Virus record (IMG/VR): IMGVR_UViG_3300010354_000017
Location: 1-33,904 of that record
DNA: 33,904 bases
Direction: 5' to 3' (one strand)
Source of the DNA: a virus
Shown: in pieces, positions 5,382 to 16,053 of the stretch
How positions within the stretch are numbered: the stretch's first letter is position 1
Layout: each line of letters begins with the position of its first letter
Program-made: the position numbers and the translations under genes
The notes under the pieces: generated by a model
Databases searched by the model: none
What the model saw: only the letters and a program-made list of their open reading frames with translations
What the model was told of the DNA's origin: nothing

Positions 5382-5660
5382 ATGACACGAGAACAAACGA
5401 ACGCAACGATTGAGCGGTTTTTCAAAATCAATCCTAAAAAAATCGAGGAATATAACGAGCGAATTTCGCTTTATTTGTGGACTGAAAACAAGCGGTTCGA
5501 TTTAGACTGGAACGCTTTAATCCCAATCGTAAAGGAAATTTTCGAAGACCCGCACGCAATAATGGCGCACGACGACTTGATGTGGGGATTAACCAAAGGA
5601 AAAATTTTGTACGTTTATTTTCATGTGGCGATGCACGTAATTAAGGAACAACGATGCTAA
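5382..5660 (+). CDS. Hypothetical protein
   Basis: The product has 92 residues, is mostly helical in composition, with a charged N-terminal half and an aromatic His-rich C-terminal half (GLTKGKILYVYFHVAMHVI). No motif is recognised. It starts 4 nt after the RlpA-like stop, so it is in the same operon. Its last codons overlap the first of three AATTAAGGAA repeats that begin at 5639, so the repeat array constrains the C-terminal sequence. Confidence 0.7.
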   Translation: MTREQTNATIERFFKINPKKIEEYNERISLYLWTENKRFDLDWNALIPIVKEIFEDPHAIMAHDDLMWGLTKGKILYVYFHVAMHVIKEQRC

Positions 5661-5701
5661 ATTAAGGAACATTGACGTTTAATTAAGGAATAATTAACCA
5701 A
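5639..5701. repeat. Three iteron-like direct repeats, 21-bp spacing
   Basis: AATTAAGGAA occurs at 5639-5648, 5660-5669 and 5681-5690, each exactly 21 bp apart (two helical turns); the first two share an extra C. The array sits directly upstream of a small gene and the DnaA domain IV-like gene. Regular spacing near an initiator-like gene is the hallmark of iterons, so this could be a replication origin or an operator for a nearby DNA-binding protein. Confidence 0.6.
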
Positions 5702-5711
5702 AATTCAGGGT

Positions 5712-5870
5712 ATGGAAAAGGGTAAAAATAGGGTGCCGATGATTCCGTTAATAACGATAATCGATTGGTGGGAAAAACAGAAAGTACATTGCGACCGAGG
5801 GGGTTCGTTTAATCTTGATTTGTACATTTCGATTTGTCGAGCGAAACAATTAAAACAAATGGAGGCATGA
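5712..5870 (+). CDS. 52-residue hypothetical protein
   Basis: A short ORF from ATG 5712 to TGA 5868-5870. Its stop overlaps the ATG of the next gene as ATGA, which supports it being real. The sequence contains IIDWWEKQK and a basic C-terminus (CRAKQLKQMEA). No family recognised. Because it lies between the iteron-like repeats and the DnaA-like gene, it may belong to replication control. Confidence 0.55.
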   Translation: MEKGKNRVPMIPLITIIDWWEKQKVHCDRGGSFNLDLYISICRAKQLKQMEA

Positions 5871-6286
5871 AACGACGCGATATTATGGACCGCCTCCAGT
5901 TGAACCGGTACGACATTACCGATGTTCTGGAAATATGCCCGTTTCATTTGTGGGAACTTCAGAGTAAAACCAGAACCCGCGAGTTAACGATGTGGCGGGA
6001 TATTTGCATGATTTGGGTTTGGTTATCTGGGGAGTCAACGGTCGCCGCATCCAGACGGTTTAATCGAGACCATTCGACGCTAATTTATGCGATTCAAAAA
6101 TTAAACGATACTCTGGACGGTTTCGGGTTCTGGGAGTTACGGGATATTTTGGAGCGTATAAAATACCAGATTCGATGCGAGGTTCAACAAACGCCCGATA
6201 TTAACATAAATGAAATGGTTTCTTTGATATTGCTCGAAAATGAATTTCAGTATTTAATTGAACGAACTCAAAAAATGAAGGGATAA
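5867..6286 (+). CDS. DnaA domain IV-like DNA-binding protein
   Basis: With the ATG at 5867 (ATGA overlap with the gene upstream) the product is 139 residues. Residues about 39-82 match the DnaA C-terminal DNA-binding domain: WRDIC, then a Ser-rich turn, then RFNRDHSTLIYAIQKL (residues 64-79), where RDHST is the DnaA-box-contacting signature. The AAA+ ATPase domain of DnaA is missing. A longer TTG-start version from 5834 is less likely. It probably binds DnaA boxes or the adjacent repeats to start or control phage replication, or competes with host DnaA. Confidence 0.75.
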   Translation: MKRRDIMDRLQLNRYDITDVLEICPFHLWELQSKTRTRELTMWRDICMIWVWLSGESTVAASRRFNRDHSTLIYAIQKLNDTLDGFGFWELRDILERIKYQIRCEVQQTPDININEMVSLILLENEFQYLIERTQKMKG

Positions 6287-6290
6287 TTTT

Positions 6291-6298
6291 TATATTTG
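6291..6298 (+). promoter_or_regulatory. Candidate -7 box TATATTTG
   Basis: TATATTTG matches the TAnnTTTG consensus in the 119-bp gap after the DnaA-like gene. No TTG lies 17-23 bp upstream; the nearest ends 30 bp away. Transcription would begin at about 6304, the first base of a hairpin. Confidence 0.45.
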
Positions 6299-6405: not shown

Positions 6406-7005
6406 ATGGACAGAAAAGCGTTTAAATTTTATCGAAGTTACTGGGAAATTGCGCAAGAATTAAACGACTCAGAGCGGTTGCAATTTTACGATGCGTTGCT
6501 GAAACGTCAATTTACTGGCGAGGAAAGCACGTTAACTGGATTAGCAAATTTCGCGTACATTTCCCAACGTCATTCGATTGATTTACAAATCGACGGGTAT
6601 TTAGCACAATCGCAAAAAAAGAACCCTATTAAAGACCCTATGCAAGGGGGTGCGCAAGGGTGTACGCAAGCCCCTTCGATACAAGAGAAAGAGAAAGAGA
6701 AAGAGAAAGGAATAATTAATACCAGCGAATTCGAGCGATTTTGGTCGGCATTCGATAAAAAGGTTGACCGTAAAAAATGTTTTGATATTTGGGGAAGAAT
6801 ACCAGTAACAAAACGAAACCAAATAATCGATGCGGCAAATAAATATCGCATATCAACGCCAGAGGCACGATATCGCAAAAATCCGTTAACGTGGTTACGT
6901 GGGGAATGCTGGAACGATGAGCCAATTATAAACCTAAATACACAATCAAATGAGCAATTTAATGAACTTACAAAATCAATCCGGGAACAATATCCAAACG
7001 TCTGA
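6406..7005 (+). CDS. Replication initiation/helicase-loader-like protein
   Basis: The protein has 199 residues. Residues 1-62 (FYRSYWEIAQELNDSERLQFYDALL and on) resemble the DUF6291-type N-terminal domain common in phage replication proteins. A low-complexity Glu-Lys linker (about residues 94-101) is followed by FERFWSAFDKKVDRKKCFDIW and KNPLTWLRGECWNDE, a C-terminal pattern typical of phage DnaD/O-like replisome organisers. It would recruit the helicase at 7266 to the origin. It is preceded by the leader/terminator at 6304-6394. Confidence 0.7.
   Translation: MDRKAFKFYRSYWEIAQELNDSERLQFYDALLKRQFTGEESTLTGLANFAYISQRHSIDLQIDGYLAQSQKKNPIKDPMQGGAQGCTQAPSIQEKEKEKEKGIINTSEFERFWSAFDKKVDRKKCFDIWGRIPVTKRNQIIDAANKYRISTPEARYRKNPLTWLRGECWNDEPIINLNTQSNEQFNELTKSIREQYPNV
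6685..6708. repeat. GAGAAA x4 microsatellite in coding sequence
   Basis: Four tandem GAGAAA hexamers encode the alternating Glu-Lys linker of the replication protein at 6406. Changes in copy number would keep the frame and alter only linker length. Confidence 0.95.
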
Positions 7006-7264
7006 TAAAAAACAAGCGATTGCGGTAGCGGTTGCGGTGGCTTTTGAGCGAACAGGAACGAACCCGTTTCCAATTGAAAACATGCTAAACGATATCGTAA
7101 ACGAATTTCAGGATTTGGACGCTGGGGAAATAATCAAAGCAATTCGTAACGGCGGTCTGGGAAAATACGGAAGGACGTATAAATTAACGACTCAAGAAAT
7201 ATGCGTTTGGATTCGTCAATACATTAATGACCGTAATTTGGCAAAATTTAATCCATTCGGTTAA
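6950..7264 (+). CDS. Small helicase-loader-like protein
   Basis: The product has 104 residues; starts at ATG 6950 or 6962, both inside the end of the gene upstream. Residues about 22-40 are Ala/Val-rich, then IVNEFQDLDAGEIIKAIRNGGLGKYGRTYKLTT leads to a WIRQYI helix. The GKYGR-x-Y-x-L...W-x-R-x-Y pattern is one I associate with small proteins next to phage helicases in Bacteroidota. It lies between the initiator and the helicase, so a loader or clamp role is plausible. No enzymatic motif is present. Confidence 0.6.
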   Translation: MSNLMNLQNQSGNNIQTSDKKQAIAVAVAVAFERTGTNPFPIENMLNDIVNEFQDLDAGEIIKAIRNGGLGKYGRTYKLTTQEICVWIRQYINDRNLAKFNPFG

Positions 7265-7265
7265 T

Positions 7266-8162
7266 ATGAAAGGTTACGAAATTATCAAATCTGGAGACGT
7301 TTTGAACGGGTTACATAAATACCGAAAAACGTACAACGAAAAAGGGGTTTATTTGGGTTTTCAAAACGTACACGAATATTATTCCATGCAATTGGGAGGG
7401 GTTACGGATTGGACGGGTTATCCGATGAGCGGCAAAACGCAAGTTTTAATGGAGTTCCTTTTGAATACTTCGGAGGCTTACGGTTGGCGTCATTTGGTTT
7501 ATTTTCCAGACGTCGGAAATGCGGTTGAAATCGTAGCGGATTTAATCCACAAGAAAACAGGAAAATCCTTTAACCCATTAAACCAGAACCATATTACGGA
7601 AATAGAAATAAATTCAACGCTTGACTGGGTATTATATCACTTTAAAATTTTGACGCGTCGAGATATGAAAGCGAAGTTAACCGCTATCGAGTTTTGGGAT
7701 TACGCCGTTAAATTGAAAAACGATGAGGGGCTGGAAACGGCATCGATTGACAGCTGGAAGGATTTACAGCATGATTATTCGACGTTTGGAGGTTACGCCC
7801 AGTATTTAGAGTTCGTTTTGCCATACCGAAACCAGATTGCGGAGGATAACGATTTGCATTTGCATACGATAATTCACCCGAAATTGACTGAAAAAGAAAA
7901 AGACGGAACCAGAAAACCGCCCGTTCCATACGATTTAAAAGGGGGTTCGGAGTGGTTCAATTCAGGAAAGAGCATGATAACTGTCCATCGACCTTTTTTC
8001 GATGATAATCTGGTTCAATTGTTTTTCAATAAAATAAAACCGCGTTCAATTGGTAAAATCGGCGAAACCGAATTACGGTTTGATATCGAAAAATTCCGTT
8101 ATTATTTCCTCGACCATTCAATACCGAACATTCATCGTAAAGTATATTCAAATCAAAATTAA
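7266..8162 (+). CDS. DnaB-type replicative helicase ATPase domain
   Basis: I choose ATG 7266, 1 nt after the upstream stop, giving 298 residues. Walker A is GYPMSGKT at residues 51-58. Near residue 190-250, a HTIIHPKL strand, a basic loop with KPPVPYDLKGGSEWFNSGKSMITVHR, reproduces the DnaB C-terminal order of a beta strand, a disordered loop, PP-x-x-DL-x-G and a closing HR (arginine finger region). The DnaB N-terminal primase-interaction domain is absent and no primase is encoded nearby, so host primase is probably used. Confidence 0.75.
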   Translation: MKGYEIIKSGDVLNGLHKYRKTYNEKGVYLGFQNVHEYYSMQLGGVTDWTGYPMSGKTQVLMEFLLNTSEAYGWRHLVYFPDVGNAVEIVADLIHKKTGKSFNPLNQNHITEIEINSTLDWVLYHFKILTRRDMKAKLTAIEFWDYAVKLKNDEGLETASIDSWKDLQHDYSTFGGYAQYLEFVLPYRNQIAEDNDLHLHTIIHPKLTEKEKDGTRKPPVPYDLKGGSEWFNSGKSMITVHRPFFDDNLVQLFFNKIKPRSIGKIGETELRFDIEKFRYYFLDHSIPNIHRKVYSNQN

Positions 8163-14558: not shown

Positions 14559-15054
14559 CGTTTATTTGTTGGCGTTTGTGATTGCCAATTTTGTCGTGCT
14601 TTGGTTTGGTTCAAATGGGTTAATATTTACGGCGTTATTTCTAATTCCTTTTGATTTTGTAATGCGGTGCGTGTTTCACGAGACGTGGAAGGGGTTCGAA
14701 TTAATAGCAAAAATGTTCATTTTGGTTTTGGTTGCTGGGGTTATTACTTATTTAATTAACCATGAAACTCATAAAATTGCCGTTGCGTCTATTATTGGTT
14801 TTACCGCCGCACAAATATTTGCGGGGTTTATGTATCAAATTTCAATCAAAAAATCCTACTTATTAAAAGTAAATACATCGGACGCCATTGGAATAATTGT
14901 AGATTCGATTTCGTTTCAGTTATTCGCGTTTGGAACTGTTAATTGGTATATTTTCAGTTCCCAGTTTATGCTTAAAATAATTGGCGGTTTGTTTTGGTAC
15001 TGGGTTATTTTTGTTAAATTAAAATTGAATACAAAATGGGAGAATTCACAGTAA
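14539..15054 (+). CDS. VUT/YhhQ-family membrane transporter, probable deazaguanine precursor uptake
   Basis: ATG 14539 (20-nt overlap with dpdA) gives 171 residues with about five hydrophobic segments. The motifs follow the VUT/YhhQ (DUF165) family: ANFVVLWFG, a FDFVMRCVFHETW cytoplasmic turn, a central IAVASIIGFTAAQIFAGFMYQ helix, VNTSDAIGIIVDSISFQLFAFG and KIIGGLFWYW. E. coli YhhQ takes up preQ0. Here it could import a deazaguanine precursor into the host for DpdA. A longer TTG start at 14503 is less likely. Confidence 0.8.
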   Translation: MGVLKISVYLLAFVIANFVVLWFGSNGLIFTALFLIPFDFVMRCVFHETWKGFELIAKMFILVLVAGVITYLINHETHKIAVASIIGFTAAQIFAGFMYQISIKKSYLLKVNTSDAIGIIVDSISFQLFAFGTVNWYIFSSQFMLKIIGGLFWYWVIFVKLKLNTKWENSQ

Positions 15055-15467
15055 CAAGGTATCACGATTTTTGCGCCGGTCATCGAGTGGTTGGGCACGA
15101 AAACAAATGCAAACATTTTCACGGTCATAACTACCGAATTCATTTTACTGTTTCCACCGTGGACGGTTTGGACCTCATTGGAAGGGTAATTGATTTTTCC
15201 GTAATAAAAACTCTGTTATGCGAATGGTTGGAAATCAACTGGGACCATAAATTTCTCATGTATAAAAACGACCCATTTTTAAATCTAATGCAGGAAATGG
15301 ACCCGTCAAGCGTGGTAGTGGTTCAATTTAACCCAACCGCTGAAAATATGGCGCGGTATTTAGTAGAAGTGGTAGCTCCAAATATATTGCAAGGATTGAA
15401 TTGTGAATTGGTCGAATGTACAATTGATGAAACCCGTAAATGTTCCGCAAGTTATGTTAAAAGTTAG
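15036..15467 (+). CDS. queD: QueD, 6-carboxy-5,6,7,8-tetrahydropterin synthase
   Basis: The protein has 143 residues, near the usual QueD length. Zn ligands His16 (FCAGHR), His29 and His31 (KHFHGHNY), catalytic Cys25, the GRVIDFSVIK strand with Asp53, WDHK (Asp70-His71) and the closing ECTIDETRKCSASY are all in order. It converts 7,8-dihydroneopterin triphosphate, the FolE product, to 6-carboxytetrahydropterin. It overlaps the transporter by 19 nt and queE by 14 nt. Confidence 0.9.
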   Translation: MGEFTVTRYHDFCAGHRVVGHENKCKHFHGHNYRIHFTVSTVDGLDLIGRVIDFSVIKTLLCEWLEINWDHKFLMYKNDPFLNLMQEMDPSSVVVVQFNPTAENMARYLVEVVAPNILQGLNCELVECTIDETRKCSASYVKS

Positions 15468-16053
15468 TGAAATTTTTTATAGCCTTCAGGGCGAAGGGCA
15501 AAGAACCGGCACGCCGACCGTTTTTATCAGATTGCAAGGGTGCAAAGCAAAAAATGCGTGTTTTGCGGCTGGTATTCGATGCGACACGGAGTTTAATTCC
15601 GGTCGAGCAATGGAATTAATCGATATTTTGAAGTGGATTCGGGAAAACGCACCAAAATGCGAAGAAATTACATGGACTGGGGGCGAACCGCTTGACCAAT
15701 TGACCGAGGAACACATCGAATACTTTAAAAATGAAAATTTTTACCAATGTATCGAGACTTCAGGCTTGCATCCATGCCCAAAAGGCATTGATTACATAAC
15801 CGTAAGCCCAAAAGTAGCGGAACACGTCATAAAAAAGAACTTTCCAGACGGGGTAACTGAATTGCGCTACGTTCGACACAAAGGGCAAAGCGTGCCAGAG
15901 CCAGAAATCGAAGCAAAATACTATTTTTTGAGCCCACATTCCGACGGCTTTACAATCAATGGGGAAAATTTAACGCATTGCATATCGTTGTGCCTCGAAA
16001 ATCCAAAATGGAAATTAAGCCTTCAAAATCATAAAATATGGAATATCCTGTAA
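15454..16053 (+). CDS. queE: QueE, 7-carboxy-7-deazaguanine synthase (radical SAM)
   Basis: With ATG 15454 the product is 199 residues. EIFYSLQGEG and G-TPTVFIRLQGC at the N-terminus, CDTEFNSG, WTGGEPL (74-80), ETSG, VSPK (117-120) and a C-terminal WKLSLQNHK are QueE signatures. It makes CDG from 6-carboxytetrahydropterin using S-adenosylmethionine and a 4Fe-4S cluster. The cluster cysteines are C30, C36 and C43, a C-x5-C-x6-C spacing rather than the usual C-x3-C-x2-C. It overlaps folE by 16 nt. Confidence 0.88.
   Translation: MLKVSEIFYSLQGEGQRTGTPTVFIRLQGCKAKNACFAAGIRCDTEFNSGRAMELIDILKWIRENAPKCEEITWTGGEPLDQLTEEHIEYFKNENFYQCIETSGLHPCPKGIDYITVSPKVAEHVIKKNFPDGVTELRYVRHKGQSVPEPEIEAKYYFLSPHSDGFTINGENLTHCISLCLENPKWKLSLQNHKIWNIL

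Follow-up and report, generated by a model that had tools for sequence, protein, structure and literature searches.

A 21-bp repeat trio ahead of the replication genes of a phage with a likely Bacteroidota host: a possible operator-type cluster, with a more likely origin inside the initiator gene

The question raised by this locus is whether three short direct repeats lying just before the replication genes of a phage mark its replication origin, an operator, or a duplication without function. The window, by which we mean the whole stretch of DNA analyzed, comprises the 33,904 nucleotides of IMG/VR record IMGVR_UViG_3300010354_000017, and an earlier note on it had described the repeats as a candidate origin or operator with the classical appearance of iterons. 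The exact 21-bp spacing (two helical turns) given in that note was confirmed. Identical copies of the core AATTAAGGAA were found on the + strand at 5639..5648, 5660..5669 and 5681..5690 (start-to-start distances of 21 and 21), and these are the only three exact occurrences in the whole 33.9-kb window. The units across 5639-5701 read AATTAAGGAACAACGATGCTA, AATTAAGGAACATTGACGTTT and AATTAAGGAATAATTAACCAA, followed in register by AATTCAGGGTATGG; a degenerate fourth unit on the + strand, AATTCAGGGT (5702..5711, 7/10 positions retained), is also in register and abuts the ATG at 5712. As had been noted, repeat 1 falls within the final codons of the preceding gene, a 92-aa ORF (5382..5660, + strand; ..V-IKE-QRC-stop) which ends inside unit 1 and for which no homologues or relatives were found in the collections searched. 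The 21-bp units preserve the reading frame of this ORF, with ..IKE.. in each, up to in-frame stops.

The trio is not a chance product. Tandem Repeats Finder reported 5639-5690 (period 21, score 69) as the top-scoring array of the window, and the trio is the only identical word of at least 8 bases that is present three times at one spacing when spacings of 10-45 bp are considered. No such triple was observed in 36 Markov-simulated windows (orders 1, 2 and 4) at k=10 or in 18 simulated windows at k=8. Of the 21 unit columns twelve are invariant, ten of them forming one uninterrupted block, while the 11-bp spacers are mostly diverged and of equal length; the contiguity of the ten core columns gave a permutation P of ~0.0035 in a test which was post hoc and based on three units only. 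A conserved core with diverged spacers of equal length is a pattern like that of binding sites, which is suggestive but not proof. No short inverted repeats flanking the trio were found.

All genes around the array are on the + strand, and their order is the one the earlier note had given, with a small gene and a DnaA domain IV-like gene after the repeats and then an initiator and a helicase. The replication operon opens with a conserved small phage gene (5712..5870, 52 aa) that has homologues in other phages. It is followed by a stand-alone DnaA domain IV-like protein of 139 aa (5867..6286; Pfam Bac_DnaA_C, 32.8 bits against a cut-off of 31.5) which retains the DHST motif, the part that reads DnaA boxes. 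A replication initiator-like gene (6406..7005), with a DUF6291 N-terminal domain and weak similarity to phage replication-initiator PHROGs, and a helicase-like gene (7227..8162; PHROG 5482, with a weak DNA primase/helicase match) come next, and a NinG-like gene (8451) and an Erf-like annealing gene (9831) lie further downstream. The helicase-like gene has homologues in Flavobacterium phages, and since its closest annotated relatives are from Flavobacterium columnare phages (49% identical), the host is likely a member of the Bacteroidota. A Shine-Dalgarno-like motif at the usual distance was found at none of the 44 gene starts of the window (background 3.9%), which is consistent with such a host. 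A QueD-like gene and, after it, an overlapping ORF resembling QueE were also observed at 15036-16053, and these are possible 7-deazaguanine pathway genes in the phage.

The earlier note had proposed that the array be looked for in related phages, and none of the relatives examined proved to have it at the orthologous position. In 66 viral loci obtained from a scan with the helicase-like protein no clusters of TTAAGGAA were detected, and no relative had an equally spaced identical triple longer than 5 bases ahead of its 5712-like or 5867-like gene, compared with 10 in the window. The locus L123 (IMGVR_UViG_3300011115_000524) repeats the gene order of the window, with genes matching 5712 and 5867, a helicase-like gene and an Erf-like gene, and a replication gene in between. 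This syntenic locus contains no array, nor does it have room for one, since the 5712-like gene and the ORF before it overlap. Two nearly identical contigs (L055 and L074) stop short of the array region. TTAAGGAA is absent from the cultured F. columnare phage FCOV-F19, in which no comparable initiator lies next to the helicase-like gene either. As it is absent from all relatives examined, the array is confined to this phage or to a narrow lineage, and for the same reason selection across species is not demonstrable. Lack of conservation was one of two results, the other being lack of protein binding, which according to the earlier note would speak against its reading, and lack of conservation is what these relatives show.

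The trio was also considered as a conserved phage motif, and this was rejected: the exact 21-bp pair pattern matched in 3 viral contigs, and a looser pattern matched 50 viral contigs which on inspection were mostly protein-coding heptads (VKE/LKE). A literature search for the motif returned primers and unrelated papers only. A non-coding AATTAAGGAAC pair at 21 bp was observed in an unrelated viral contig (L005:2916-2946), with an amidase-like gene region on one side and small genes on the other, ~140 bases before a TACTTTTG motif; no DnaA_C-family gene was found in this contig.

If the trio were an iteron-type origin, or an accessory part of one, it would be bound by the DnaA domain IV-like protein, by host DnaA or by the initiator. 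Its three exact and one degenerate units of 21 bp, in helical phase, fall within the 17-22 bp of plasmid iterons (PMC4980987), and like the iterons of RK2, R6K and F they are short, directly repeated and about two turns apart, with initiator and helicase genes nearby; the array region is also 70% A+T compared with 60% for the window. Unlike those iterons (PMC4980987), the trio is not conserved in the relatives examined and not tied to the initiator gene, its binding is putative, and a separate set of repeats is present inside the initiator gene of the window. Moreover, relatives in which the DnaA-like, initiator and helicase genes are retained lack the array. GC skew, which the earlier note had put forward as a check, does not change sign at the array. 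DnaA boxes are in no excess or cluster: TTATCCACA-like sites with one mismatch number 10 in the window (9.9 expected) with none near 5639, and the three TTWTNCACA sites are all distant from 5639. On this evidence we consider an origin at the trio unlikely and disfavour that reading; the description of the repeats as iterons is not supported, and a misleading origin call at 5639 is removed.

The better candidate lies ~1 kb downstream of the trio. Inside the initiator gene an iteron-like array of period 12 with GCAAG units (GCAAGGGGGTGC, GCAAGGGTGTAC, GCAAGCCCCTTC; 6642..6677, + strand) is directly followed by a GA-rich run, (AAGAGA)4.5 (6683..6709, + strand), and the 40 bases of block 6680-6719 are 72% A+T, although GA-rich, against the window mean of 60%. 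Arrays of 10-13-bp units were found in relatives some 300 to 450 bases ahead of the helicase-like gene. The units themselves are lineage-specific (TATGCAAGGGGG, and CAAAGCAC-, AAGCAAAA- and CCCTTGAA-type), while the position is fixed, and some loci, including the window, have the GA-rich run after the repeats. In 32/32 non-redundant loci the repeat score of the initiator-gene region exceeded the mean of same-locus controls (Wilcoxon p = 4.7e-10), with a few of these scores stemming from GA-rich low-complexity runs. Repeats at this fixed place were seen at 6642-6709 of the window and in L056, L063, L071, L081, L096, L107 and others; between L106 and L107 the difference is a single 12-bp unit. 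From relative to relative the C-terminal module of the initiator differs or is swapped.

From this conserved position we infer that replication more likely starts at ~6642-6709, inside the initiator gene, and that the initiator-gene repeats are probable origins of the lambda O type in Flavobacterium-type phages. As in the lambda ori in gene O (PMC7466680), the repeats at 6642-6709, as distinct from the trio, are iterons in the middle of an initiator gene, with helicase-like, NinG-like and Erf-like genes downstream. The part of the gene that contains them may likewise encode a linker, of low model confidence and likely disordered, and the stretch after them may correspond to the A+T-rich one of lambda. 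The 6642-6677 iterons encode initiator residues ~79-91, and in the AlphaFold model, which is weak as a whole (mean pLDDT 56.8), residues 80-106 have a pLDDT below 50 while the N-terminal helices are well modelled. Unit number varies between lambda and related phages (PMC7466680), as it does among the relatives of this phage. The differences are the 10-13-bp units and the DUF6291 N-terminal domain, and the likeness seen is one of layout, any homology to lambda O being putative. For the Flavobacterium-type phage group this points to a testable origin, made of fast-changing iterons at a fixed place in a DUF6291-domain initiator gene.

The operator half of the earlier proposal may hold for the trio, in view of its core, spacers, two-turn spacing and position, while the origin half is unsupported. 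Our tentative preference, held with somewhat less than even confidence, is that the trio and its degraded fourth unit are a lineage-specific operator-type cluster of putative protein-binding sites and not an origin. The array sits where the lysis module gives way to the replication operon, which runs from 5712 onward. Its non-palindromic core AATTAAGGAA would be recognized every 21 bp, along one face of the helix, by a DNA-binding protein that is most likely encoded by the phage and that would regulate either transcription into the replication genes or their expression. The exact 21-bp phase and the placement directly before the first gene of the operon speak for an operator; against it, the array is not conserved in the relatives examined and no Bacteroidota-type promoter motif adjoins it. 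The TANNTTTG motif does not occur on the + strand between 4617 and 6291, and the first -7 promoter motif of this type on that strand after 4617 is TATATTTG at 6291..6298. If the trio is an operator, it would mark a control point of the replication operon. We consider it improbable that the array is specifically the target of the stand-alone DnaA domain IV-like protein, acting without an ATPase as a DNA-binding switch, with the origin again in the initiator gene; in that case the protein might coordinate expression of the replication genes or compete with host DnaA.

Ranking close behind the operator as a possible explanation is a short tandem duplication without function, a minisatellite begun at the 3' end of ORF 5382 whose units have since diverged. 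The position of repeat 1 in the last codons of this ORF, whose frame the units keep until the in-frame stops, fits such an event, as does the absence of the array in relatives, and intergenic arrays of this period and core turn up sporadically in bacterial chromosomes. These sporadic 21-bp TTAAGGAA arrays, together with the missing host-type promoter motif beside the trio, are what make the duplication a close rival. Even divergence over the 21 bp would, however, be expected of a minisatellite, yet the ten invariant columns form a single block, and the likeness of the bacterial parallels is partly one of selection as they were gathered using this core as query. Far less probable than either is an RNA element: UUAAGGAA resembles a Shine-Dalgarno sequence, and the array would be a leader through which translation of the 5712 gene is controlled. 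The sequence AAGGA does lie 6 bases from an ATG at 5655, and a tiny ORF (ATG CTA AAT TAA) follows repeat 1, but repeats 2 and 3 have no ATG at the right distance and the array RNA folds no better than shuffled sequences (z = +0.7), a result on which a role in RNA structure was rejected. A Shine-Dalgarno role of the repeats was likewise rejected, as the motif count at gene starts given above indicates that this phage apparently makes no use of such sites. This folding result and the lack of these motifs make a role at the DNA level likelier than one at the RNA or ribosome level.

When genomes were scanned for three TTAAGGAA spaced 21 bp apart, 67 loci were returned. These include arrays in Gaoshiqia, Sunxiuqinia, Draconibacterium, Tannerella and an Ignavibacteriales genome, several of which are intergenic. 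Multi-unit arrays were present in 1/198 genomes of a phylum sample and in 3/60 genomes of a sample of the family of Gaoshiqia, and with such sporadic occurrence the array was rejected as a phylum-wide host repeat. Because the core served as bait, these loci show that such arrays arise sporadically and not that they form one family. Their orientation relative to the upstream gene was 22 vs 14 (p = 0.24), and no preference is claimed. BrickBuilt of Porphyromonas gingivalis, a 23-bp intergenic minisatellite with a leader and a tail with inverted-repeat ends (PMC4596501), resembles the trio in its intergenic head-to-tail units of 21-23 bp and belongs to the same phylum as the likely host. The trio differs in having 21-bp units, only three to four of them, with diverged spacers and in a phage genome, and no leader or tail with inverted-repeat ends was detected around it.

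Among the bacterial loci, arrays of 4 to 13 units, mostly intergenic, were observed in Draconibacterium and Gaoshiqia (L131, L140, L153 and L194) and in Porphyromonadaceae and Tannerella (L155, L161, L168 and L178). In both groups these have an exact 21-bp period, the TTAAGGAA core and variable spacers, and in several of them a V/L-K-E reading frame stays open. Bacteroidales bacterium STD2_111 carries a dispersed element, in which a ATTAAGGAAAAA unit is repeated three or four times in 21-bp steps, on more than 10 contigs (L129, L132, L145, L147, L156, L166, L167, L171, L177, L181, L185 and L189).
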